Shown here: one piece after another, positions 29,731 to 46,541 of the stretch
Position numbering within the stretch: the stretch's first letter is position 1
Layout: each line of letters starts with the position of its first letter
Origin: a virus
DNA length: 64,000 nt
Virus record (IMG/VR): IMGVR_UViG_3300027754_000034
Location: 1-64,000 of that record
Direction: 5' to 3' (one strand)
The notes under the pieces: generated by a model
What the model saw: only the letters and a program-made list of their open reading frames with translations
Database searches by the model: none
What the model was told of the DNA's origin: nothing
Program-made: the position numbers and the translations under genes

Positions 29731-32700
29731 ATGGCCACTGCACCCAGACTTAACTATTTCGATAATTCGGGTACGACTGTTAATTTGGTGGTATATACTA
29801 ATACTTCTAGTATATACTTAACTGGCGCTCTGGACGCAGATACTGTCGATGTTCAAATTAGTATCAATGGCAGTGGGTTCATATCCGATCCTACGCTCAT
29901 AGGACTAAATTTACCTAATTTTTCTGTTCCGAATTTGAATAGCTTTCCTGCTGGACTACAGTTAGAAGCAGGTCTTAATACCATAGAGTTAAGAGCAGTC
30001 GACATATCAGGTAGTGTTAGCCCAGTCACTATAGCGAGTATAACAGTATCCACAGAGTACAACGTAACACTCATAGAAGCTTCGCCAACAGGCGTTGTGA
30101 TGAATAGATTTAGTGATTATGTCGAGATAGGATGGACTCTTGCTCAAGATATTGGATTTTATACTCCGACTCCCATATCTGGATATAATGTATATGCTAG
30201 TACAGGCCCAGGAGGCACTGGTTCAGGATACTTGAGACTTAATACCCAACTCATTCCAGTAGATAATCCCTCTGAATACACGGAGTCTGAAATCGATACT
30301 AGAGAGGTATCCTACGATTTTCCGTTTTCGGAACAAGATGTGGCTCAAAGTCTTTCCATAAAATTTGATAAGGTTTCATCCAGCGATTATCAATTTAGAG
30401 AGAGATTGTATGAAAATGTTTACCCCCTGTTACTTTCCCCTAACTACAGAGTAAAACTAACCTTTTCTCGTTTAGAACAGACTAGAAGGTTTAAGTTCCG
30501 ACATAATAGAAATGATGATTTATCCTCTGGAGTTCTGAATAACGACACATTCGGGTTCATCCTCCCTTATATTCCTATTTATTATGTCGTTACGGCAGTT
30601 TATGTAGATAATGAAAGAAACACGATGGTTGAGAGCAGATATTCAGAGGAATTAGTGGGGTCCCCGCTTCCAATGGATATAAATGTCCGGGGACTTAGGA
30701 TTAGAGACCAATCCGTCGTAGCGCAGGAGTATATTAAAACTCTTCAGTCTGTGGCTCCTGAACTGTCTTTAATACCCGGATCAACCATTAGAGAAGTTCA
30801 TATTGAACCATTTTCTAATGAAATCCAAAAGTCGTACTTTTTGATGGACTTTGTTAATAGAGCAAAATCTTTTCCCGCCCTACTAGCCATTGATGACCCG
30901 TCAAATTCTAACTTTAGCATTCCTGTGGCTAACTCGCAGTATAAGTCGAACCTGAAAACTGCGTTATCAGTTCCTACAGATACCACAGTACAAGAACTCA
31001 TAAACAATGCCTTCGATTCTCTTGCTAAAAATTTCGGGGTAATTCGTAAGGGTCGTACATTAGCTTCTGTAAATCAAACATTCTATACCACAACCAAACC
31101 TTTAAGAGATCTATATGTAAATCAGGGAACAGTCGTTAGGTCCGGTACTAATCCGGGAGTTCCACGGTTTATGGCTAACGGCCAGGTTGTTTTACCTGCC
31201 GCAAGTGCATCTAGATATTATAATTATGATAAGAAAAGATATGAAATAAAAGTACCTATGATTGCCGAAACAGCTGGTGCTTCAGGCAACGTGCCTGCCG
31301 GGAGCTTAGATTCTATTGTCTCTGGATCTTTTGGACTACTTACAATAAATGAAGAAGCAGCTTTTGGTGGTACCGAAAGCCAGAGTAATTTAGAATTAGC
31401 CACAGAATCATCGCGTGTTCTTGTTTCTTTGGATACGGGTACTGCTGGTGGATATGAAAAACTAGCCGCCAGTATCCCCGGTGTCCAGGATTATGTTTTG
31501 GTAAGTTCAGGTGATGAATATATGATGCGGGATTGGGATCCCGTAAGAATGAAGCACGTCGGTGGAAAAGCAGATATATATGTTAAGGGAACTATAGAAA
31601 GAACCATTAATGAGACGTTTGCTTTTGAATTTAATATAGCTAGAAATGTTAGATTTGATGTAATAGATCCCATAAATTTAGTATTTCGTGCTAGAGATTC
31701 AAGGTTATCTGTAGATAACCCTATTCAGGAAGTGTTATTCAATCCTTCTCAAGATTTAGGACTATTTAACTTTAGCAATTTTCCAACATCTGCCTATGAC
31801 TTGATAGGGGTAGAAATAGTAGATTTTAGGACCATTAGATTAAGCCTTTTGGTTCCTCAACCAGACACTGCTCTCGATGATTTTATAACGGGTAGCTATA
31901 GATATCGCAACAACAATAAATTCACACCATCAGTCCAGCCGGTCATATCTGTATCATCTGTTGTAGGAGAAATAAGTGGTATCATAAGTCCGGGTAATGG
32001 ATATCTATTATATAAAACCCAAGACCCACTAATAGATGGCGAAAGTAGTCTAGCCAATGACTACGTAGAAATAAAACAAGTAGATAATGTGCCTTCTGGT
32101 GATGTAATAATCGTAAATGATGAGACACATGTACTAATCGGCCAAATTGAAGAGGGGTTACTTAACATTGGCATAAACCTGTCTACCATTTTGGTGCTTT
32201 CCGAAGATAGAACTACCATCTTCAATGGTCCAGACACTGAAGACCCTGATTATTCCTTAATGTCAGGCACATCGACAACTGCCATCAGGATAGTAAGAAC
32301 TATCGATTCTAATATTCCTGACGGTTCGGTTGTATCCGTGGATTATGAACATGATGAAAATTTCGAGGTTACGTACACGGTAAATGACCTTCTGACACGT
32401 CTGCAACTTGAAGTAAATAGAATGAAGCACATCACCGCTGATGTGGTAGCCAAGCAAGCTATTGCAAATCCACTAGACATACAAGCAACTATTCAATTGC
32501 GTCCCGGATATGAACAAAGCACTGTAAATAATAACATTAGGACTGGTTATTCTAATCTAATATTATCTAGGGAAATAGGCGAGCCCATTCACGTTTCTGA
32601 CATTACGGCTGTCATTGATAACTCTGATGGTGTAGACTTCGTAGTTCAGCCGTTTGCAAAATTGACTCTCCAGAATGGGGCGCAAAGAGTAAGAGACAGT

Positions 32701-33183
32701 ATACCGAGTTTTAATAATTTTATTCCCTCATTGTCTCGTGGAACTAATGCAGTATATATCTTAACAGATTCGTTCCCATTTGCTACAGTAGATAGTGGTG
32801 GTCCGGAGAACGTACATAAAGACGTATTTAAAGATAACATTGCTATGGCAACTTCACCTACCTTAAATAGGATAGGTGATATAGTAAATCAGGCATATAT
32901 TATTGGGGATGATGGTGCTGTTATAGCTGGATACTCTGATGATTTAACTATTCTTAACTCTGGGTATACTGCAAATCAAATTGACAATGTTAGAATGGAA
33001 CTAACTGCTAATAAAGTAGTGGTGTCTTTGGACTATGGGGTTACACCAGCTGACACTCCCGACTCACATTCATTTAGTGTTAGTTATTTTGTCTACAATG
33101 ACTCTGGAGTTAAGGATATTATTACTTCAAGTGTTGAATACTTAAACCCAGGAAATTTAACGCTTACGTTTAGAAAGGCCTAA
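29731..33183 (+). CDS. Baseplate J-like wedge protein (gp6-type)
   Basis: A 1150-residue protein. The N-terminal ~300 residues contain Ig/FN3-like strands (SDYVEIGWTLAQDIGFY, YIPIYYVVTAVYVDNER). Residues about 430-600 match the Baseplate_J core: a helix, then YEIKVPMIAETAGASGNVPA with the conserved GNV-x-G, and EEAAFGGTESQSN-LELATESSR. The C-terminal part has the usual J ending (VEVNRMKHITADVV-like helix, LDIQATIQLRPGYEQSTVNN, IGEPIHVSDITAVIDN). J/gp6 proteins form the ring of wedge dimers that opens on infection. A purine-rich AAGGAAAT ribosome site precedes the ATG. It is longer than typical J proteins because of added N-terminal domains. Confidence 0.82.
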   Translation: MATAPRLNYFDNSGTTVNLVVYTNTSSIYLTGALDADTVDVQISINGSGFISDPTLIGLNLPNFSVPNLNSFPAGLQLEAGLNTIELRAVDISGSVSPVTIASITVSTEYNVTLIEASPTGVVMNRFSDYVEIGWTLAQDIGFYTPTPISGYNVYASTGPGGTGSGYLRLNTQLIPVDNPSEYTESEIDTREVSYDFPFSEQDVAQSLSIKFDKVSSSDYQFRERLYENVYPLLLSPNYRVKLTFSRLEQTRRFKFRHNRNDDLSSGVLNNDTFGFILPYIPIYYVVTAVYVDNERNTMVESRYSEELVGSPLPMDINVRGLRIRDQSVVAQEYIKTLQSVAPELSLIPGSTIREVHIEPFSNEIQKSYFLMDFVNRAKSFPALLAIDDPSNSNFSIPVANSQYKSNLKTALSVPTDTTVQELINNAFDSLAKNFGVIRKGRTLASVNQTFYTTTKPLRDLYVNQGTVVRSGTNPGVPRFMANGQVVLPAASASRYYNYDKKRYEIKVPMIAETAGASGNVPAGSLDSIVSGSFGLLTINEEAAFGGTESQSNLELATESSRVLVSLDTGTAGGYEKLAASIPGVQDYVLVSSGDEYMMRDWDPVRMKHVGGKADIYVKGTIERTINETFAFEFNIARNVRFDVIDPINLVFRARDSRLSVDNPIQEVLFNPSQDLGLFNFSNFPTSAYDLIGVEIVDFRTIRLSLLVPQPDTALDDFITGSYRYRNNNKFTPSVQPVISVSSVVGEISGIISPGNGYLLYKTQDPLIDGESSLANDYVEIKQVDNVPSGDVIIVNDETHVLIGQIEEGLLNIGINLSTILVLSEDRTTIFNGPDTEDPDYSLMSGTSTTAIRIVRTIDSNIPDGSVVSVDYEHDENFEVTYTVNDLLTRLQLEVNRMKHITADVVAKQAIANPLDIQATIQLRPGYEQSTVNNNIRTGYSNLILSREIGEPIHVSDITAVIDNSDGVDFVVQPFAKLTLQNGAQRVRDSIPSFNNFIPSLSRGTNAVYILTDSFPFATVDSGGPENVHKDVFKDNIAMATSPTLNRIGDIVNQAYIIGDDGAVIAGYSDDLTILNSGYTANQIDNVRMELTANKVVVSLDYGVTPADTPDSHSFSVSYFVYNDSGVKDIITSSVEYLNPGNLTLTFRKA

Positions 33184-34078: not shown

Positions 34079-36394
34079 ATGACTATCATCGTAGACTATA
34101 TAGTCACAGTTCTATCGGATAAAACTATCCGAGTCCTATTTCAAGAAGAAGTAAACCCGAGTAACGCTTTAACAATATCTAACTATGCTTTTTCTGTATT
34201 GCCTGGTACCAGTTATCTGCCTTCTCTAGTGGAGGCAAAATCCTTTAATACTGATAATAGACAGTACGAACTCATATTTTCGGAATCATTCACTCACACT
34301 TCTGTTTATTCTGTTCAGATATCTGGGGTTTCTACTCCAAACGGCGATGGTGTTGTCACTCCTTCTGCCCATAACTGGACTGCCAACGTTCCGGCAGGAG
34401 CAGTACCGCTCTTATGCATATTCTCTATTTTGGGGCACTGTGACCTAGTGTTTGATAGAGAGGTAGGACAATACTCTTCCGGGGCTTCTGGAAGCATAAC
34501 TAATGGCGTTGACCCTAGCGACTCTTTAATACTTGTTCCTTGGAACTCTAGCATACCATTAAATAACGTTAGATTTCAAATTCCTGCGACTGTAGATTCT
34601 GGTGATGAGTGGTATGTCTCATTTATTGATATACTTGATATTAGCCAAAATCAATCATTAGGAACGATTAAATTAAGCGTTCCGGACACCATCCCGAAGC
34701 CCCTCACTTATTCGGAAGCCACCACCATCCGTACTACTAACTCATTCTTAACAAATTATAACTACTATTTCGGATTCAATAATATAAGATTATTTTTTAA
34801 TTTTGCGACAAATGCTAGCGTTTATGACACTACGAATTACAATATTTATCAAATTGAAACTCATCTAAGCCCCGACAATTACCACTTCGTGACTGAGCCC
34901 GATTGTACAAATTTGGTAGAATTTTGTGACTTATTAAATGACATAAAATTACAATATAATAAACATCTTCTAGCTCCTGGCGTCCATTTGATCAGGGACC
35001 CTTCTCAATTAGTAGTGACTCAGAATGCTATGGACATGGAATCTGCTTATCTATTGATATTAGATCTATATGAGAAGTATAGAGGTCATGCTGAATCAGA
35101 ATCTTTACATAATTCTAAAGATGGAATAAACTTGCCGAATGATGGGTTACCGATTAAGGCAGCCACAGTCCTGTACGATTATGCTAATTCTCTTAAGGCT
35201 TCCTTTAATTCTCACTTAACTATAGAATATTTGGTCCCATTTGTTTCTTACCCATTTTTGGGCGCTATTTCGTCCGATTTTAGTAGTTTTCCGGGCAATC
35301 CGTTAAATTCTATTAGTTCTTGGAGTGCAGACCTTAGAGTCAAATCTCGTTCTCCTCGTACTCAATACAGAATAGAGTGCACTGTTTCATCTGAAGATGG
35401 TAGTAGCACTACTGATCTTTTAACAGGTACTTCACTAGTGAAGTCAGCTTCATCAGAAGCTTCTCTAATTAGTCATACTTTTTTAAATACGGATTCTGTT
35501 GTTATTACGAGTGATCATGAATTTTTTAATTTCGAAAATCAATATGAATATAAGAACGAAGGAAAAGCTTTAGAGTATGAAGAATCTGAAGAATATTCAT
35601 CTATCCAATCTCTCTTATGGGCTTTGCAAGAGGCTTGGATTCAATATGATTCACATAGAACAAATCAGTCTCATTACTTTCTGGATACCATTAATTTCGT
35701 TTCAGGTTCGGATATTCCTACTATCGATACAATAGTAGATTCAGTTAATAAGTTAAGAGATAAATATTTAAATCATAAAATTGGTGCCAAGTGGCACAAT
35801 ATTCCGGACGATTCTTATTTTAAAGCTGCTTACGCTACTGATATTCATTCAGCTATTAAGCTATTGTCTAAAATAAGATCTTCTATGAATCATCATACTA
35901 ATAATGGAGTTTTACATAACGGGTCGAGCCAAGAGTGGATTTCTGCTCCTTTATTTGATTCTATCGTGTTTAGGACGGGATATCAGAAAATAGATGCTGA
36001 TTTGACTTTAGAGTTTCCAGCTGTTGTAAAGGTGGTTTATTTGGGAGCACCCTCCAACATCTTCTTTGAACAAAGATTTTCTTATACTTTTAAGGGTGTA
36101 GGTTTTAACCCTCACATTTCGGATGTGGTGCCTATTCCAGCAGTAAGCTGGTATAGGCAAAATAGTGGATATTCCTCGGATAACTTGCAAGTTTTCTTTT
36201 CTAAGAAAATGGAGGAACTTTCCTTAGATAATGTGTCAATACTACCGGTCACTCCAGGGGATTCTATTTACATAAATAGAAGAATGTGGATTTCCGAAAA
36301 CGTAATAGAATTGGGTATTGCAGGCATGTCAGCAGCCCTTTATACTTTGAACATCAGTGGGATTTCAGATAAAGCGGGGAACCAGGTCTCGTAA
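34079..36394 (+). CDS. Fibre protein with Ig-like domains and His-pair repeats
   Basis: A 771-residue protein. The N-terminus (VDYIVTVLSDKTIRVLFQEE, YELIFSESFTHTSVYSVQIS) and C-terminus (NLQVFFSKKMEELSLDNVSI, LYTLNISGISDKAGNQVS) each look like a bacterial SbsA-type Ig domain. Between them, at about 276-385 and 507-620, are about six copies of a helical repeat with the pattern L-x2-[IL]-[KR]-x2-[YF]-N-x-H-x(5-9)-[VL]-H-x3-D, for example NDIKLQYNKHLLAPGVHLIR. The same repeat is expanded in the next protein. A fibre or baseplate adhesin role is inferred. The stop overlaps the next ATG (TAATG). Confidence 0.68.
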   Translation: MTIIVDYIVTVLSDKTIRVLFQEEVNPSNALTISNYAFSVLPGTSYLPSLVEAKSFNTDNRQYELIFSESFTHTSVYSVQISGVSTPNGDGVVTPSAHNWTANVPAGAVPLLCIFSILGHCDLVFDREVGQYSSGASGSITNGVDPSDSLILVPWNSSIPLNNVRFQIPATVDSGDEWYVSFIDILDISQNQSLGTIKLSVPDTIPKPLTYSEATTIRTTNSFLTNYNYYFGFNNIRLFFNFATNASVYDTTNYNIYQIETHLSPDNYHFVTEPDCTNLVEFCDLLNDIKLQYNKHLLAPGVHLIRDPSQLVVTQNAMDMESAYLLILDLYEKYRGHAESESLHNSKDGINLPNDGLPIKAATVLYDYANSLKASFNSHLTIEYLVPFVSYPFLGAISSDFSSFPGNPLNSISSWSADLRVKSRSPRTQYRIECTVSSEDGSSTTDLLTGTSLVKSASSEASLISHTFLNTDSVVITSDHEFFNFENQYEYKNEGKALEYEESEEYSSIQSLLWALQEAWIQYDSHRTNQSHYFLDTINFVSGSDIPTIDTIVDSVNKLRDKYLNHKIGAKWHNIPDDSYFKAAYATDIHSAIKLLSKIRSSMNHHTNNGVLHNGSSQEWISAPLFDSIVFRTGYQKIDADLTLEFPAVVKVVYLGAPSNIFFEQRFSYTFKGVGFNPHISDVVPIPAVSWYRQNSGYSSDNLQVFFSKKMEELSLDNVSILPVTPGDSIYINRRMWISENVIELGIAGMSAALYTLNISGISDKAGNQVS

Positions 36395-39300
36395 TGGCAT
36401 CACTAAATTTTTCTGGTTTTAGTTCCGTCAAGGATAGGACTGTATTTACTAACAAAGGCCCCATAGTAAAATCCCCACTTACTGTTTTATCAGGTCCTAA
36501 TCTATATATTAATTCTCCAAATGAAATAAATATCCCCACAGGGAATTTTGATGCTTCATATGTGAACAAAAATGTTCAGATTATTGGAAGTCCGCTTTCT
36601 AGAAATGATGGTACGTACCGAATAGTTGCTGTTAGAGCTTATAATATACTAAAGTTAGATGCTAATTTTGACTATGCGGATTCGGATAAGATCGAACAAG
36701 ACATAGTAAAATTAGCTAATGACATTAGATTTAAATTCAATGCGCACTTGCTTAATACTGACTCTCATGGAGAAAAGGACCTCGTAAATTCGGTTACTAC
36801 CCCTCCTGCTGTTAGTTTATCGAATGCAATAGTTTTACTTAATGAAATTAAGACAAAAATAAGTATCCATTCTCTATTAAGCGACAATCCGTTATTCATT
36901 CACAAGTTCGCTGATCCCGATTCTAGTTTATTCACTGTTGATGCATTTGATCTTGATAGTACCTTTCTTTTGGTTAATGCTTTAAGAAAGCGATACGAAG
37001 CTCACAGACAAGACATAGGAATTCATCTAAAAGATGACTTCGCGAATAGGTTGGCCATAAACTCTGCCAAAGCTTACGTAGGTTCAGGATCAATGATCGG
37101 CCCATTTAATTGGGAAATCCAAGATCCCCGATATGGGGTAGTCGCGGATGATCCTTCTGACGTAAGTGTGTTGGTTAATGGTAATCCCGCTGATGTGGAT
37201 TATGTGTTCGGGTTGCTTGGTGCCGTGGTCTTAACAGATAAACCAAATCACGGAGATTCTGTATTAGTAGATTATAAATATTTAAAAAATCCCCCTACCC
37301 AATTCGAAAGACTAAATAGCTTCGAATTTGTTTTGAATCAAGAGGGTAATAACGGATACTCCGGTGTTCCAGGACACCTTTACAGACAGAGATCTTACCT
37401 GATTAATCCTGGTGATCCTAGACTAATAAAATCGCCTTTTTCCCCAAGGAAGATAAATTATAAATATAAGGCATATGAAAATAAATATACAGCTAAGCTT
37501 AATGACCCGAGTTCATTGCTTTTAAATAGTCCTACTAACCGAATAATGTATTCGGTATTTAATGAATCGGTATTTGAGTATATAATTAGATATGATCCGG
37601 TGGTTCTTCCTAATAATGCGATTGACCCTTGGGTGTTTTATGGAGAAGGTGTTACAAGATTAACTGTCGAGTATCCAACGCTCATAATAGAAGATACTAC
37701 GAGGAATTATTCTAGTAATCCGGGTCCCCCTTTTTATTCACATTCACTAGACTTAAGATACCCAAGCTTCATATCAGCGGCTTACAGATTTTATGCAGAT
37801 TATGGATCTAATCTTACTTTAGATGGAGAATTCAACGGAGTAGGATTCGGTTTTACTGATGGTCAAAAAGCGGTAATCGTAGGTGGTTTACTGTCTGACG
37901 CAAATAACCTGTCGTCCGCCATATTTCTTTGTAATGACATAAAGAATAAGTATTCTTCTCATATTGATTCTGCTATATTTCACCGACCAAAGGATAATGA
38001 AAACATAGTACTAATTGTTGATGCATATGACTTAGATAGCTTGCTAAGACTGACGAATCATTTAGTTTCCATTTACAATAGTCACATTGTACTAGGGTCT
38101 AATTATATTCACAAGAATTCTGATTTTTCGAATTCTGTAACCTCGACAGAGGTCAATCAGTTAGAAGAAGCAATACTAAGACTCAATGAATTAAAAAGCA
38201 AGTTTAATACTCACAGAAGTTTCGTACCCGTACATTATAACAATGATAACATCAACATTGTAGATAAAGTAAAACAAGTAGGTGTATTCAAGAATGAGGG
38301 ATTTCTCGAAGAAGCGTCTGCTTGGCAGTCTTTTGCGTATAATTGGACTGTTGAGACTACGTACCGCCTCTACATTACCCCAGATGGAAATGCTAGTATC
38401 TTTCTGAGTGGTGATGTTAATCCTAGAACATCAGTGGATTATTCAGAATTACCAAATGCTTCCGATTTAGACCTGCAATTTGACCCTGTCTACCAAACAT
38501 TTTTTGGCGCGTTGGGTGATGCCAGCTCTAGCAAGAGTTATTGGAGGTTCAGTAGAATTGATGTACTACCAATAAATTCACTGCAAATACTGAAAAACAA
38601 ACAGGTAAGCTATACATTTGATACGCTTCCTGAATACACTATGAATCCGTGGATTACTGTCGGTCAAGGCGGGACTGAATATTTACTTCCCGTTGATAAA
38701 CTTCAGTTAGATTCAACGTCTTTTATAAGTAACGCCGATGCTGAATCTACAGGAAAAGTCACAGGCGAATATAGAGGGTATCTTCGGATCGAACCCTCGT
38801 TAACAGACCGGAACGTCATTACTGTAGATTTTTCTTTATTCAGCCCATTTTATAGCTTCGGTGTAGATAATCGATCTTTAGGAGTTCATATAGGAGATGG
38901 TACTTTTGCTACGCAATTGTGCTTCTTACAGGCTAATCCTAGTCCCGCTCATATAAGAGGATTGGTGTATGAAGGAGCCTTTTCGATTTCTACGGGAGAC
39001 ACAGCCGTTTTCTCTGTGGATAACGGCCATATTATAGTGGTTACAAGCCCAAATAATATAATTACTGTTAATGACTTAGTAGTTTTAATTAATTCCCAGA
39101 GTGGCTTAAATATCGCTTCCGTTTACCAAAATCCATATACATTGCAAGAAACTATTCAATTTACCAGTATTAACACTGGTTCTGGTAGCAATCTAAGAAT
39201 TATAAGTGGTCCTATATTCGATAAACTCGGAATTCCAGTAGGAATCTTTATATTTGGGAGTGATACTCAGCCTGAGTATAAATTTGGTTATACTGGTTTA

Positions 39301-42300
39301 AGTATTCCGAACTTTGACGATCCAACTTGGTTAACTTCCGGATCTCAAAAGTCAGAGATGTTAGAAAGAACACTAGTAATTACTGACAATAGTGTAATAG
39401 ATTTTAGGTCTTACACTCAGTCGAATCCTCTAGTCGTAAATCCGGTCATAATACCAAATGAAAACTGGAAAGTAGATTTTAGATTTAAACTAACTTCATT
39501 TGAGTCTGGCAACACTATTGTTACTCCTGGTAATTATAAATTTTGTGGTGCTCTAGTTAATTTAGATGAAGGACCTAATGGAAAGAATTTAGAATTACAC
39601 CTGTCGATAAGTCCAATAGATGAAAAGTATGCTGTAATTTATTCATTCAATAATCTAACCAATACATTAGAGGAAGTGGCGGCTTTCGGATTCAACTGGG
39701 GTGACAATAAAAATCACTCATATAGTATTTATACCGATAAGGTGAACGATAATTTATCTTTCTTTATAGATGGTGCGTATTTCGGTTCCTTCACATATTC
39801 AGGATTAAAAAATGGGTCTTATGGTCCCTCTTTAACATTTGGTTCTGGAGGGTCCCTTCTAAACAATGGGGATCTTGCTTCAGCAAAGTCCACTACTGAA
39901 TGGAATTCTTTGTGCGTAATCCATGATTCTACTGTAGGCAACTCATATCTTCAATCTCAAAGATTCATGGGGTTGTACCGTGGAGGTCCTATCGATAGAC
40001 TTTCTTCTTATTATCTTTCTCAGGTAGACTGGAAACAACCGCATTCCTATAGAATATTACGAGATCCTATTAGTGGGGTAAGTGTTTATCTAGATAATTC
40101 GGCAGCTCCTGTCATTTCTGCTTCTTTTGACGTGTTAACTCTCCCTTTGAGCGTTTTGGATTTTCTTTCTGGAATAGTCCCAAGCGGAAATTTTATCGCA
40201 TTTGGTTCTTTTAATCAGCAAGAAATATCCAGGTCTATATGGCTTGATGACATTAAATACTCTATTGGAAAATTAAACGATACGAATGGGTTCGTCCCCC
40301 CTCACCAAGTTTTAAACCAGTCAAACTTGGTGAGTTCCTATGAGCATTTGAAACTAAAATCCGTTCATTCTCACCATGGATTTAGTTCGTACTCTGAGGG
40401 CACTCCTACAGATGACCTCTTAGCAAGCGATGATGTACAAGGGCTAATTACTTTAGGGGAGGGAATTCCCTTAATAACACAATCACAAAATATTCCGAAT
40501 TTGGGTGGTCTTGTTACAGACGTTACGCCCTCTGATTCCATAGCCGCTGCAAGCTTCATATTCCAAAATGGTCAGGTATCGAATTTTTCTGATGACCTTG
40601 TAAATGTCGCTGACATTGATGCAGTTTTAAGTCCCCTGCAGTCATTAAATAACTTAATAAGTGAAACCAATATATTAAGACTAAAATATTTAGATCACAT
40701 TTCTAAAACTAATTTCGGAGTGTTTGTAATTCACCAGAATGCTGACTTGGTTAATGATGTAGTTAGCGGTCCAGTAGCACCTGGAGATTTGTCTGGCCTC
40801 ATTAATTGTCTTAAGGATTTACGTGATGAATATAACTCGCATAGAATAGAAGCAACTGTTCATTACAACGATGATACCTTTCACGAAGTCGTTTTTGCTG
40901 ATCCCACTGATTTAGAATCTTGCATTAACTCACATAACTTATTATCAGAAACGTTAAATCTTCACATAAAAAGCTACTTGCCACATAGGTTAAGCGGAGA
41001 AAGTTCTGACAAGGTTCCTTACATACTAGCATCCCTAAATTTATTTAGGGATTTATTTCACTCCCATATGACCAATGAAAATGGGAACTTTGTGCACAAA
41101 GATATGGGAGTCGATTCTCCTGATACGAATAATGCTAATTTCTTAGTTACTGAGTATGTAAATGATATTAGTCAGGCATTCCCTCAGATAAAAGCATTGA
41201 TTGAAGTTTTTAACTTTCATCTGTCCAATAAGACACCACACGATAATATTTTTGATATTACAAATACGATTTCTTTACCGTATCCTAATGGTATTGATGA
41301 CCTGTACAACCAAATAATCATTCTGACTACGAAATTTAATGATCACTTATCAAACACTGGTGGTGCGTATCATGACGGAAATGATATATATAACATCTTC
41401 GCTGCAAACGCGAATATAGAATATTTAGTAAGATACCTTTACAGTGCAAGAGACCTACTGAACATTCATGTTAATGATTCTTCACTACATAACTTCTTAG
41501 ATGACGATAATCAGTACTTAAATGAACTGAATTTTCTAATAAATGGTCCTAAAACCACATGTAACCCTTCCGATTATTGTACATTTGCGAATGAACTAAA
41601 AGAAAAATTCATAAACCACTTTAAGTCGAGTACACACTTGACTGTAGACTTCTTAAACGTTGATTTCTTAGAAGCTCAACCAAACGCCGTAAATCTTAAT
41701 ACAGCCATGGATCTGGTTACTTCTTGTTTGATTTCGATAAATCAACATAACCAGTCTTTGGTGAACGAGTTACAAGCGCATAATGGAATAGATGATGTGA
41801 ATGAAGGCTTTACATCTATTAGTTATAACCCGTTAAGCTTAGTCTTTATGTACGTGAGTCAGGTTTGCGAGTTATTTAATCAACATATTGATTATAAAGA
41901 GTCTCACGTTAAAACTACTAGCTCGATACAATTCGGGAGCGGTCTTTCATTACAGGATAGCGTCGATAATTTAAATATACTTAAGTCTTCTTACAATGAC
42001 CATTTATTGAGTCCCGGAATCCATGTTAGGAACGATACGGCAAACGCCATAACTTCGCCTGATGCGTCCGATTTAGGTTCTCTCATAGTGTTATTAAACG
42101 AGACTGTAACCAAATATAATCAACATAGAATTCGACCTGGTGTTCATTCTAGTACTGCTATCATAAAACTCTCATCTCCTCCAAATTCCTTATATGATGG
42201 TTTGAAGATATGGACTATCGATTCAGGGACTCCGAATTTGATTTCGTCATTTTCTGATGATGAAACATATAAAATACATGGGTTAAGTAACAGTAAAACA

Positions 42301-43062
42301 CTAAAATTGAATTATTCCGGAGTAAACCTTCCAGAGAATATTTCAATTTGCAGTGTCAACACTGGCCCATTTCCTCTTATTCATAACACTTATTTATTAG
42401 TGTATTTGAATTATGCTAATGAACCAGTAAGGGTGATCTTTACATCCAGTGAAACAACAGGCCAGGAAGTAGTAGATAAAATAAATAATACTTCGGGAAT
42501 ACCCCTAAATTTCGCTAGTTTATCTACTGATCAAAGAATAACTCTCACTAACCCCACATCTGGGGCCGGAACGTCTTTATCTGTTGATGGAACTACTCTT
42601 GACGTTCTGGGATTTAGAAATTCTCAGCCAATACCTTGGGCTCTATACGCTGATGATTCCACCTCCGTATCAGTTGGTGTTGTGTCTTCTACCCCGGATT
42701 ATTTATCATATACTACAACAGGTACAGGCACCAAGACTGCTTATGTGAATTCAAATGGGTTGACTGACTCGGTATCCCTTGGTTTCTCAATAAAATATAA
42801 GATAAAACTTAATACTTGGTCTTACGATGCTAATGGAGAGACCGGAATCTTCATAGGGTGTTCAGGTAAATCGGGTCCTGGATTCACAGTAGGTTTGGGA
42901 TTTGGGGAGTTTTTTGGGAATAAGACAGTATATATGAAAGATATGAATTCCGGAAAGATTTTAGCTTCAAAGGTATTCAATTGGGCGGATGGGGTGTTTC
43001 ATGAATACATCATCGAAAGATCAATGCTTGATGATTCCATCATGTTTAAAATAAAATACTGA
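36394..43062 (+). CDS. Giant fibre protein with LamG-like domains and His-pair repeats
   Basis: A 2222-residue protein. His-pair helical repeats occur in three groups, at about residues 105-216, 507-619 and 1415-1925, some 18 units in all, such as LNELKSKFNTHRSFVPVHYN and CLKDLRDEYNSHRIEATVHY. Concanavalin/LamG-like jelly-roll domains sit at about 1020-1140 (WKVDFRFKLTSF, NLSFFIDGAYFGSFTYSG) and 1189-1290 (DWKQPHSYRILRDPISGVSV, SIWLDDIKYSIG). A third starts near 2095 (KYKIKLNTWSYDANGETGIF) but stops after FHEYIIERSMLDDSIMFKIK, before its last strands. LamG folds often bind sugars, so this is probably a host-surface adhesin. The abrupt end suggests truncation of the last domain. Confidence 0.72.
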   Translation: MASLNFSGFSSVKDRTVFTNKGPIVKSPLTVLSGPNLYINSPNEINIPTGNFDASYVNKNVQIIGSPLSRNDGTYRIVAVRAYNILKLDANFDYADSDKIEQDIVKLANDIRFKFNAHLLNTDSHGEKDLVNSVTTPPAVSLSNAIVLLNEIKTKISIHSLLSDNPLFIHKFADPDSSLFTVDAFDLDSTFLLVNALRKRYEAHRQDIGIHLKDDFANRLAINSAKAYVGSGSMIGPFNWEIQDPRYGVVADDPSDVSVLVNGNPADVDYVFGLLGAVVLTDKPNHGDSVLVDYKYLKNPPTQFERLNSFEFVLNQEGNNGYSGVPGHLYRQRSYLINPGDPRLIKSPFSPRKINYKYKAYENKYTAKLNDPSSLLLNSPTNRIMYSVFNESVFEYIIRYDPVVLPNNAIDPWVFYGEGVTRLTVEYPTLIIEDTTRNYSSNPGPPFYSHSLDLRYPSFISAAYRFYADYGSNLTLDGEFNGVGFGFTDGQKAVIVGGLLSDANNLSSAIFLCNDIKNKYSSHIDSAIFHRPKDNENIVLIVDAYDLDSLLRLTNHLVSIYNSHIVLGSNYIHKNSDFSNSVTSTEVNQLEEAILRLNELKSKFNTHRSFVPVHYNNDNINIVDKVKQVGVFKNEGFLEEASAWQSFAYNWTVETTYRLYITPDGNASIFLSGDVNPRTSVDYSELPNASDLDLQFDPVYQTFFGALGDASSSKSYWRFSRIDVLPINSLQILKNKQVSYTFDTLPEYTMNPWITVGQGGTEYLLPVDKLQLDSTSFISNADAESTGKVTGEYRGYLRIEPSLTDRNVITVDFSLFSPFYSFGVDNRSLGVHIGDGTFATQLCFLQANPSPAHIRGLVYEGAFSISTGDTAVFSVDNGHIIVVTSPNNIITVNDLVVLINSQSGLNIASVYQNPYTLQETIQFTSINTGSGSNLRIISGPIFDKLGIPVGIFIFGSDTQPEYKFGYTGLSIPNFDDPTWLTSGSQKSEMLERTLVITDNSVIDFRSYTQSNPLVVNPVIIPNENWKVDFRFKLTSFESGNTIVTPGNYKFCGALVNLDEGPNGKNLELHLSISPIDEKYAVIYSFNNLTNTLEEVAAFGFNWGDNKNHSYSIYTDKVNDNLSFFIDGAYFGSFTYSGLKNGSYGPSLTFGSGGSLLNNGDLASAKSTTEWNSLCVIHDSTVGNSYLQSQRFMGLYRGGPIDRLSSYYLSQVDWKQPHSYRILRDPISGVSVYLDNSAAPVISASFDVLTLPLSVLDFLSGIVPSGNFIAFGSFNQQEISRSIWLDDIKYSIGKLNDTNGFVPPHQVLNQSNLVSSYEHLKLKSVHSHHGFSSYSEGTPTDDLLASDDVQGLITLGEGIPLITQSQNIPNLGGLVTDVTPSDSIAAASFIFQNGQVSNFSDDLVNVADIDAVLSPLQSLNNLISETNILRLKYLDHISKTNFGVFVIHQNADLVNDVVSGPVAPGDLSGLINCLKDLRDEYNSHRIEATVHYNDDTFHEVVFADPTDLESCINSHNLLSETLNLHIKSYLPHRLSGESSDKVPYILASLNLFRDLFHSHMTNENGNFVHKDMGVDSPDTNNANFLVTEYVNDISQAFPQIKALIEVFNFHLSNKTPHDNIFDITNTISLPYPNGIDDLYNQIIILTTKFNDHLSNTGGAYHDGNDIYNIFAANANIEYLVRYLYSARDLLNIHVNDSSLHNFLDDDNQYLNELNFLINGPKTTCNPSDYCTFANELKEKFINHFKSSTHLTVDFLNVDFLEAQPNAVNLNTAMDLVTSCLISINQHNQSLVNELQAHNGIDDVNEGFTSISYNPLSLVFMYVSQVCELFNQHIDYKESHVKTTSSIQFGSGLSLQDSVDNLNILKSSYNDHLLSPGIHVRNDTANAITSPDASDLGSLIVLLNETVTKYNQHRIRPGVHSSTAIIKLSSPPNSLYDGLKIWTIDSGTPNLISSFSDDETYKIHGLSNSKTLKLNYSGVNLPENISICSVNTGPFPLIHNTYLLVYLNYANEPVRVIFTSSETTGQEVVDKINNTSGIPLNFASLSTDQRITLTNPTSGAGTSLSVDGTTLDVLGFRNSQPIPWALYADDSTSVSVGVVSSTPDYLSYTTTGTGTKTAYVNSNGLTDSVSLGFSIKYKIKLNTWSYDANGETGIFIGCSGKSGPGFTVGLGFGEFFGNKTVYMKDMNSGKILASKVFNWADGVFHEYIIERSMLDDSIMFKIKY

Positions 43063-43980: not shown

Positions 43981-44628
43981 ATGCCAAAAGAGATATTCAA
44001 TAAAATGGGTTTTAATAACACTGCCACCATGAGTAGCACGATGGTAGAGTCCCTTTTTGGTATTAGCGGCGAGATTTTTTGGGAGTTAATAGATTCAAGG
44101 ACAGGTGAGACCACCAAGGGTCATATCAAAAACATAGTCACACTAGATGCAGGAATCCTGGTGGCTAGACTAATGAAATCTACGGCTACCCCAAATGTGT
44201 CCGAGCCGAAATTCGGAGTATATGCTTTAGCAGTAGGAACCGGTGATGTTGGCTGGAATCAAATGAACCCACCTCCTGCTAATGTTTACCAGCGTTCTCT
44301 ATATAATGAAATTGCTCGGAAAACCGTTGCTTCATCCTCATTTATAGACTCGGCAGGAGCTATTAGTGGTGTTCCTTCGCACGTAGTAGACTTTAATATT
44401 ACTTTCGCAGATAATGAGGCAGTCGGACCTCTTACTGAGATGGGATTACTGGGGGGAGATATTAATACTAATATGTCTATCCGCAATCCGGTTATGCCTC
44501 CGAATGGGTCATATGATCCCACAGCGGATGTTACTGGGAAAGATACCCTTTGCAATTATGTTACCTTCCCAGTATTAAACAAGCCACCGAGCAGTACTTT
44601 AAGCTGGACTTGGCGCTTAACTTTTTAG
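43981..44628 (+). CDS. Structural protein of the tail fibre region, 215 aa
   Basis: A GGGAG ribosome site precedes the ATG (CTGGGAGCATAAA). The 215-residue product has the layout of a common phage structural family: an N-terminal helix with TLDAGILVARLMKS, an AVGTG loop (YALAVGTGDVGW), then LYNEIARKTVASS, VVDFNITFADNEAVGPLTEM with GLLGG, and a final SSTLSWTWRLTF strand. Such proteins occur beside fibre genes in many phages; their role is thought to be minor virion assembly. The last 15 coding bases plus the following gap are duplicated on the far side of the adjacent endonuclease gene, so this gene marks the left border of the inserted unit. Confidence 0.68.
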   Translation: MPKEIFNKMGFNNTATMSSTMVESLFGISGEIFWELIDSRTGETTKGHIKNIVTLDAGILVARLMKSTATPNVSEPKFGVYALAVGTGDVGWNQMNPPPANVYQRSLYNEIARKTVASSSFIDSAGAISGVPSHVVDFNITFADNEAVGPLTEMGLLGGDINTNMSIRNPVMPPNGSYDPTADVTGKDTLCNYVTFPVLNKPPSSTLSWTWRLTF

Positions 44629-44644
44629 TGTATATTTAATATGT
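44613..44644 (+). repeat. Left copy of 32-bp direct repeat flanking endonuclease
   Basis: This 32-bp sequence is identical to 46556-46587. It covers the last codons of the 215-residue protein gene, the short gap, and the first bases at the endonuclease start. Together the two copies bracket the endonuclease gene exactly. Confidence 0.95.
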
Positions 44645-46541
44645 GAGAAAAGACATTTCCGGATTATTAGTTCATATAGATTTAGATGCGACAGAATTAA
44701 AATTTGGCGTCTTAAAAGACAATCAGTCAAGATGTGTCGTGTCTTGCCATGGGTGTCTAGAGACTCATGACTCTAAGATAATACTCTTAAAGAGTCATAT
44801 TTCAAAAAGGGAATTTTATTACTGTAGTAGCTGTTTAGGCAAAATGTCTTGGACAGAGGAAAAGAAGAAGAAAATTAAAGATTACTGGTCAGTCCCTGAA
44901 AATATATTGAAGGAGCATGAAATTAGAAAGGATAAATGGAAAAACGGAAAATATAGGTCTCAGATGGAAAATATTATCCAAGAAAGGTCTGCGACTCCAG
45001 CATTCAAGAATAAAATGTCCGTTTTATCTTTAAAGAAGTGGGAGGACCCTTCTTACCACTTAAATATCTCTGACCAGATTAAAAATAAGTGGGAAGACCC
45101 GGAATATCGTAATAAGCAGGAAGCTTATAAAACAGATGAGTGGAAGTCTGAGCATTCAAAAACGCAGACGTTACTTTGGACTGATGAAAGCTATAAACAG
45201 AACATATCACGTAAAATATCGGAAGCATGGAATGATGACGAATATAGGAATAATCAAGTAATTAAGCAGACACAGGTTTGGCTGAATCCTGATCATAAAG
45301 AAAAACAGTCACGCATGATGAAAGAAAAATGGAAAGATCCTTCTTTCAGAGCGAAATATGAAAATCTTTGGAAGTCTAAGTCATGGCGGAAAAACCTTTC
45401 CGACACTTTAAAGAAAATATGTAGTAATCCAGAATATAAAGCAAAATTAAGTGAAACCTCGAAATCTAGATGGGGAAATCCAGAATATAGAGAAAAAGTA
45501 TCAAAAGGGGTTAGTCGGGCGTGGGATGACCCCGATTACAGGCAAAATAAGGCAGAAAGTGCTAAGGCTTTTTGGGATAACGAAGATAATCGGCAAAAAT
45601 TTGCATTAATTAGAGCTGCTCAATCTGGACGTCGTTCTAATATTGAAAAAATAGTAAGCGAAATTTTAAAGGGATTAAATATTAATTTTGAAGAACAAAA
45701 AGCTCTTGGTGTTTATGTTTTTGATTTTTATCTCAATGAATATGATTTATATATAGAATGCCAGGGGGAATATTGGCATTCTTTGCCTGGTAGAAAAGAA
45801 AGAGATGCCGCAAAGTATACTTATCTTGAGAAGGCAGCTCCCAAGTCCAGAATTTTATATCTATATGAACATGAATTTATAAATCCCAATACTATATTAT
45901 CTAAATTAATGAATGCCACGATACCACAAAACATGCCAGGTAATGACTTTATTGAAAGCTTCAGATTTCAGGATCTGCTTATTAAGACAGTAGAAAGAGA
46001 GGAAGGAGCAAGTTTTTTAAATGCTTTTCACTATGCGGCGAATGGTAGGGCCGGGAAAAGTATTTATGGAGTCTATTTGGGTAGTGTGTTGATTGCTGTA
46101 GCGAAGTTTTCTTCCGTAATACGCCAAGAATCAGCTTCGTCATTAGGACTTCATCCGAAGAATGTTTGTGAATTGGATAGATTCTGCATTCATCCTAGAT
46201 ATCATAAACGAAATTTCGCTAGTTGGGTTTTGTCTAGAGTGACTAAAATGGTATTAAGTGACACTAGAATAAATTATATAATATCATTTGCAGATAGTAC
46301 CTATGGACATAATGGAACCATCTATAAAGCAGCCAATTGGGGGTACGTAAGTAATGTTAAGGCTGATTATTATTATGTGAATGAAGAAGGGTTTATCCTC
46401 CACAAGAAAACTCTTTATAATAGAGCAGTGAAGATGAAATGTACCGAAAAACAATATGCTGAAACACATAATTACATGAAATGCTGGGGCCGAGAAAAGT
46501 TCAAATTCATATACCCACGAATAGTAAAGACACTCTCCTAA
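44643..46541 (+). CDS. Homing endonuclease: Trp repeats, nuclease, Mom/GNAT-like domain
   Basis: A 632-residue protein starting at GTG 44643. A zinc-ribbon-like start has C35-x2-C38 and C61-x2-C64. Residues about 131-315 hold some ten copies of a W-x-[DN]-P-x-[YF]-R repeat, mostly spaced 17 residues (KKWEDPSYHLN, NKWEDPEYRNK, EKWKDPSFRAK), likely DNA-binding. Residues about 335-415 match a Vsr-like/PD-(D/E)xK nuclease: FDFYLNEYDLYIECQGEYWH with candidate acidic residues D361 and E372. Residues about 440-630 fit a Mom/GNAT-like domain seen at the end of other phage homing endonucleases (ELDRFCIHPRYHKRNFASWV, YIISFADSTYGHNGTIYKAA). It is flanked by direct repeats, as expected of a mobile free-standing endonuclease gene. 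Confidence 0.72.
   Translation: MRKDISGLLVHIDLDATELKFGVLKDNQSRCVVSCHGCLETHDSKIILLKSHISKREFYYCSSCLGKMSWTEEKKKKIKDYWSVPENILKEHEIRKDKWKNGKYRSQMENIIQERSATPAFKNKMSVLSLKKWEDPSYHLNISDQIKNKWEDPEYRNKQEAYKTDEWKSEHSKTQTLLWTDESYKQNISRKISEAWNDDEYRNNQVIKQTQVWLNPDHKEKQSRMMKEKWKDPSFRAKYENLWKSKSWRKNLSDTLKKICSNPEYKAKLSETSKSRWGNPEYREKVSKGVSRAWDDPDYRQNKAESAKAFWDNEDNRQKFALIRAAQSGRRSNIEKIVSEILKGLNINFEEQKALGVYVFDFYLNEYDLYIECQGEYWHSLPGRKERDAAKYTYLEKAAPKSRILYLYEHEFINPNTILSKLMNATIPQNMPGNDFIESFRFQDLLIKTVEREEGASFLNAFHYAANGRAGKSIYGVYLGSVLIAVAKFSSVIRQESASSLGLHPKNVCELDRFCIHPRYHKRNFASWVLSRVTKMVLSDTRINYIISFADSTYGHNGTIYKAANWGYVSNVKADYYYVNEEGFILHKKTLYNRAVKMKCTEKQYAETHNYMKCWGREKFKFIYPRIVKTLS

Follow-up and report, generated by a model that had tools for sequence, protein, structure and literature searches.

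What structure is built by the tandem helical repeats with paired histidines that occur in two adjacent proteins of a giant phage, and what do the histidines do in it? The DNA analysed, here called the window, is the first 64 kb of the 257-kb viral record IMGVR_UViG_3300027754_000034, the source of which is read as an uncultured giant phage. Carrier gene A (34079..36394, + strand) encodes a protein of 771 amino acids and carrier gene B (36394..43062, + strand) one of 2222 amino acids, both fibre-like by position. The original prediction had counted six units in the first protein and about eighteen in the second, and this count held: a 22-unit profile detected six units in A and 17 in B, and an 18th B unit, degenerate and with its first histidine at B residue 1785, keeps both histidines, which gives 6 + 18 = 24 units. 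When units were left out one at a time, 20 of the 22 scored above all 1000 shuffles of their own region, the other two being beaten by 3 and 1 of 1000. Moreover, a profile made from A only detected the units of B, one made from B only detected those of A, and 200 shuffled proteins rendered none. Because the repeat beats shuffled sequence in both kinds of test, chance can be excluded.

The basic element of both proteins is a triplet of units and not the single unit, a grouping in threes that the original prediction did not contain. With H1 denoting the histidine at the end of the helix and H2 the histidine in the following loop, H1 is present in 24/24 window units, H2 in 24/24, and an Asp four residues after H2 in 17/24. 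The units fall into eight domains of about 125 residues, grouped 3+3 in A and 3+3+12 in B, and each of the eight has 6/6 histidines, that is, three H1 and three H2. In A, triplet A-T1 (residues 258-384; 34850..35230, + strand) has a permuted form, with H2 at 262, 303 and 344 and H1 at 296, 337 and 379; its third H2, H262, lies 34 residues before H296, ahead of helix 1 rather than behind the last helix. A-T2 (residues 503-621; 35585..35941, +) has H1 at 526, 566 and 606 and H2 at 532, 573 and 613. In B, the corresponding positions are 118, 159 and 204 (H1) and 125, 170 and 211 (H2) for B-T1 (residues 95-220; 36676..37053, +), and 523, 564 and 607 (H1) and 530, 573 and 614 (H2) for B-T2 (residues 500-624; 37891..38265, +). 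The twelve-unit array B-T3 to B-T6 (residues 1411-1930; 40624..42183, +) is read as four triplets, with H1 at 1435, 1483 and 1524, at 1558, 1609 and 1651, at 1692, 1742 and 1785, and at 1831, 1870 and 1911, the borders between them being set by counting. A profile of aligned triplets found no further copies elsewhere in the 257-kb record.

Relatives were sought, as the original prediction had suggested, by building a profile and searching phages; they were reached by scanning IMG/VR with one degenerate DNA pattern for [YF]NxH-x4-G[VI]H-x3-D-x2-N. This rendered 81 loci, nearly all of which encode extra units outside the pattern, with a total of about 525 units, a spacing mode of 41 amino acids and a consensus of roughly AxDLATAIxLANE[IL]KxxYNAH-x6-H-x3-D-x2-N. 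The His-His repeat therefore recurs in many uncultured phages, as had been anticipated. The same kind of scan on genome contigs gave nine matches, of which one, in a metagenome-assembled genome (L094), is convincing and the rest look like chance by profile score. No match was obtained by tblastn against INPHARED phages with the window proteins and other queries, some of them in a slightly changed or consensus form. The one exception was the most regular relative, P0003, which led to a single deposited uncultured phage and to the single-unit proteins of Otagovirus. The deposited phage is cta39025 (MW202476), in which a protein of 178 amino acids annotated as hypothetical (UOF77391) has three units at its C-terminus and the six histidines in the expected order.

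The grouping in threes extends beyond the window. Multiples of three make up 67 of the 92 arrays of at least two units and, when complete proteins were counted with a separate, phased profile, 39 of 56 (p 3e-8, not corrected for relatedness), the excess coming mostly from arrays of exactly three. Most departures are due to one degenerate unit that is visible by eye, as in the window, where 17 units were found and 18 are present. By automatic count and eye together, the last array of B homologues has 6 (L018), 9 (L085), 12 (window) or 18 units (L034, L052), and a family of small proteins has either 3 (L045, L010) or 15 (L020, L065). The similarity of units three apart in long arrays is slight and inconsistent and was not used as evidence. 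Two further features of these arrays were seen: at L083:4017-4519 the coding sequence of a triplet runs through two overlapping frames, one unit followed by two, the frame being shifted either in the contig or in the phage itself, and in L070, L014, L087 and L075 some triplets are apparently interrupted between units by inserted domains of about 80-190 amino acids.

With three H1 but just two loops inside it, a triplet would have to draw its third H2 from one of its ends. Of 74 arrays, 53 have this H2 behind helix 3 and 14 ahead of helix 1, both places being occupied in 4 and neither in 3 (Fisher p 4e-9). Of these last seven arrays, two (L047, L088) are truncation or start-codon artefacts and three (L039, L066, L034) have a histidine just beyond the counting window. 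Within the window, A-T1 carries the third H2 in front and the other arrays carry it behind. The domain thus nearly always has six histidines, since one end or the other supplies the last H2, and this swapping between ends matches what would be predicted of a closed ring with interchangeable ends.

Structure prediction points in the same direction. The AlphaFold2 model of B-T2 (window 37888-38280, alignment of 102 triplets) reached a predicted local distance difference test score (pLDDT) of 96.9 and a predicted template modelling score (pTM) of 0.90, with helices at 8-26, 49-67 and 92-110, H1 at 25, 66 and 109, and a strand or bridge at 2-3 and 128-129. That of A-T1 (window 34841-35251, 60-row alignment; pLDDT 90.7, pTM 0.86) has helices at 25-43, 66-84 and 108-126, H1 at 42, 83 and 125, and strands at 2-4 and 130-132. 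H1 is the penultimate residue of every helix in both models. The terminal strands would pair with each other, because neither model has any other strand; in the register of the repeat they fall where the chain is continuous in the other units, which suggests that the ring is closed at the point where it is cut. H8, H42, H49, H83, H90 and H125 are invariant in the alignment made for the A-T1 form; H8 was a selection criterion and the H1 columns were anchors, whereas H49 and H90 were unselected. A run of three units very probably folds as a closed triplet domain. Foldseek found no match for either model in the PDB nor for the first one (B-T2) in BFVD, and searching the PDB with profiles of single units or of triplets gave nothing meaningful.

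The proteins that carry the domain are diverse. After masking of the repeat they form 26 groups, or some 19-25 when fragments are merged. The biggest is a tail sheath of about 1570-1775 amino acids: each of the nine C-terminal parts that were tested has a match to phrog_2839 tail sheath (best E 7e-28), and a carrier aligns with annotated tail sheaths. The identity came from PHROGs; in the PDB, a profile of the sheath C-terminus had no match. Homologous sheaths in which no unit was detected align at both ends only, and the domain sits in the replaced, variable middle. Other carriers belong to the head region (L026 adjoins a phrog_1623 virion protein, and L023 shares its locus with a phrog_212 major head protein). 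The fibre setting that the original prediction had given to the repeat is thus retained for A and B and has to be widened to sheath and head-region proteins. The domain behaves as a module, being mobile across unrelated virion proteins, variable in copy number and missing from related sheaths.

In this respect it is like the Ig-like domains of phages (Hoc, sheath, fibre), which are also optional, repeatable modules of unrelated virion proteins, the tail sheath included (PMC9230969). Those domains are beta sandwiches, whereas the triplet is predicted to be all-helical, with long loops and conserved histidines; both models consist of three helices and loops, and no Pfam Ig family matched the triplets. 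Weak adhesion to cells is ascribed to the Ig-like domains of sheaths (PMC9230969), and the triplet could likewise decorate the surface and bind glycans of the host or the environment, with histidines that only stabilise it. The many virion carrier families, the changing copy number, the position between the conserved ends of the sheath and an H1-to-H2 loop that varies from 6 to 15 residues, beside an H2-to-H1 stretch mostly fixed at 34, would all suit such a role. The variable loops are short, however, and glycan binding is a candidate role to which we give somewhat less than an even chance; it is compatible with the explanation preferred below.

As for the histidines, they are by far the most strictly kept residues of the unit. 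A profile restricted to the helix and ending before the histidines found H1 to be His in 99% of cases and H2 to be present in 100% of the 251 followed units, as compared with about 80% conservation at the best position of the hydrophobic core. In units outside the selection made by the search pattern, H2 is present in 303/304 and the Asp four residues after it in 266 (88%). The distance from H2 to the next H1 is nearly fixed and that from H1 to H2, mostly 7, is variable, and therefore the rigid unit is the one running from H2 to H1. H1 extends the hydrophobic stripe of the helix (positions -3, -7, -10, -14 and -17). Its place is taken by Val in a protein of 73 amino acids from Otagovirus (Pseudomonas phages VCM, REC and M5.1; L101:4881-5102, L102:4884-5105 and L104:2881-3102), called 'head fiber protein' in one record, which has one clear helix of the repeat (39 bits) and neither H1, H2 nor Asp. 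The stripe and this Val together suggest that H1 faces inward.

We consider it probable, as the best explanation taken as a whole, that three 41-residue units form a closed, pseudo-threefold domain whose six histidines hold metal and which serves as a rigid bead. Each unit would run from H2-x3-D to a 19-residue helix ending in H1, and three of them, about 125 residues in all, would fold into one closed domain that is roughly threefold symmetric. The termini of the domain would lie side by side, and the domain could then be placed in tandem, at a chain end or inside an exposed region of a virion protein, and be gained and lost as whole triplets. The three H1 may face inward at one end of a three-helix bundle, with the three H2 nearby, at equivalent places around the pseudo-axis. 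There the cluster would bind metal, either in one octahedral six-His site or in several His2-Asp sites, and the metal would lock a small domain outside the cell. The eight domains of the window would be rigid beads in two fibre-like proteins encoded beside baseplate genes. Metal binding by the triplet domain is itself rather likely, because the conservation of the histidines is well above that of the other residues, which is typical of metal ligands; if metal is bound, a single six-His site is slightly favoured, with the Asp probably in the second shell or as an occasional ligand.

Several points weigh against this explanation. H1 lies 45 degrees off the hydrophobic moment and hence does not point exactly inward, and the Asp, kept in only 88%, leaves a His2-Asp site in each unit uncertain. 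The AlphaFold2 confidence may be inflated by alignments of repeats, and the closeness of the termini and the geometry of the histidines were deduced rather than read from coordinates. Among arrays of at least four units, 11/24 are multiples of three (p 0.14), which is not significant by the automatic count alone, and the carriers are related to one another, so that the p-values are too small. Finally, a family with seven units (L024, L026, L076, L053, L084 and L032; 345-387 amino acids) is a real exception to the threes. In this family the first unit stands behind a coiled-coil-like stretch, and one unit of each chain might join an intermolecular triplet.

It could also be the case that the same closed triplet holds no metal, and that hydrogen bonds link H1, H2 and Asp in a buried, possibly pH-sensitive network capping the helices. 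The metal is itself a deduction here, the Asp four residues past H2 could pair with it, and the Otagovirus protein shows that the helix can exist without histidines. A conservation of 99-100%, against some 80% in the core, nevertheless exceeds what structural hydrogen bonds usually demand, and we regard this network as rather unlikely. An open linear solenoid, in which units merely stack and three has no special role, is very improbable: tandem units with a constant 41-residue period and arrays of 12-18 units would be expected of it, but not the surplus of arrays with exactly three units or a multiple of three, the exchange of the third H2 between ends, or an isolated triplet predicted with so high a pTM. 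Very improbable too is the arrangement put forward in the original prediction, with a threefold made by three chains, single units as the layers of a trimeric fibre and stacked histidine layers as in T4 gp37. Trimers are common among phage fibres, and intermolecular versions may exist in the seven-unit proteins, with a coiled-coil-like start and one unit beyond two triplets, and in Otagovirus, where each chain has one His-less unit. To such layers, however, it would be irrelevant whether the units of a chain come in multiples of three or whether an H2 precedes the first helix or follows the last, and the tail sheath, in which the domain is found as well, is no trimeric fibre.

What survives of that proposal is the threefold arrangement itself. 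Copies in threes, the third H2 swapping between ends and the closed AlphaFold2 models place it within one chain, where three consecutive repeats appear to form it and three chains are unneeded. Octahedral six-His iron sites are known in phage fibres, and in pyocin and T4 fibres the metal is bound by three copies of HxH (PMC6116203). T4 gp37, the R1 and R2 pyocin fibres and P2 gpV resemble the triplet in being tail proteins in which three segments related by symmetry provide two histidines each, six in all. In the T4 gp37 and pyocin type each of three chains gives a His-x-His, whereas in the triplet one chain gives three H1 and three H2 from helical repeats, with H1 and H2 mostly 7 apart, and neither PDB profile searches nor Foldseek found similarity to the solved HxH fibres. 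The comparison with gp37 is hence sound as an analogy, in the six histidines and the threefold axis, and fails as membership, there being no HxH motif and no similar PDB fold.

Helical segments in a virion surface protein are also present in the head fibre gp8.5 of phi29, and for this comparison too Foldseek found no similar solved structure with either triplet model. The Otagovirus protein is like the triplet in being helical, at the virion surface and in having one helix of the repeat, and differs in the absence of the histidines. Searches of Pfam, PHROGs and NCBIfam gave no convincing model for the repeat region, only scattered weak matches; phrog_37030 (E 6.5e-6) and phrog_6994 'head fiber protein' (E 4e-4) cover part of one unit.

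With regard to the genes around the repeats, a baseplate J or wedge gene (29731..33183, + strand; PF04865, E 2.5e-11; phrog_6 baseplate wedge, E 1.1e-19) lies two genes upstream of A, the order being the baseplate J gene, a gene for 272 amino acids, A and B; homologues of the baseplate gene are found in the jumbo phages LR745208, Tunturiibacter phage Tunturi_5 and Bacillus phage G. A search with the sheath profile found no tail sheath in the genome of the window, from which nothing is concluded about its sheath. A has a weak Ig-like (Big_5) stretch at its C-terminus, and B had no match in Pfam or PHROGs. On reading, the C-terminus of B (about 42700-43062, + strand) gives the impression of a jelly-roll type that ends early as compared with a similar stretch earlier in B. 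Window 43981-44628 (+) and L045:372-983 both match phrog_5417, of unknown function, and both are close to a triplet-domain gene. An open reading frame of 632 amino acids with a GTG start (window 44643-46541, +), located among tail genes, has a C-terminal Mom-family domain (PF25680, E 1e-25), preceded by a stretch that weakly resembles Vsr/DUF559 endonucleases and by some twelve repeats of the W.DPEYR kind; it has the look of a fusion between a DNA-modification enzyme and a homing-endonuclease-like protein.

No description of the motif or of an equivalent domain was found in the literature. Judged by sequence comparison, the triplet is a previously unnamed domain, modelled in none of Pfam, PHROGs and NCBIfam, and comparable as a modular virion domain to the Ig-like domains. 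A more tentative proposal is that the fold itself is new, helical, closed and threefold, with a single chain providing the six histidines of one octahedral metal site, and that it serves as an interchangeable, stackable bead across sheath, fibre and head-side proteins of mostly uncultured phages. A widespread virion domain would in any case be defined by a simple rule (three helices, six histidines, copies in threes and swappable ends) that makes it easy to detect. If the proposal is true, a virion could hold many metal ions, with 48 site histidines in eight sites for one copy of A plus B, and more where sheath copies carry the domain; and were the metal iron or some other trace element, virions with the domain in tens to hundreds of copies would be of consequence for the stability of the particle and for the discussion of phages as iron carriers.

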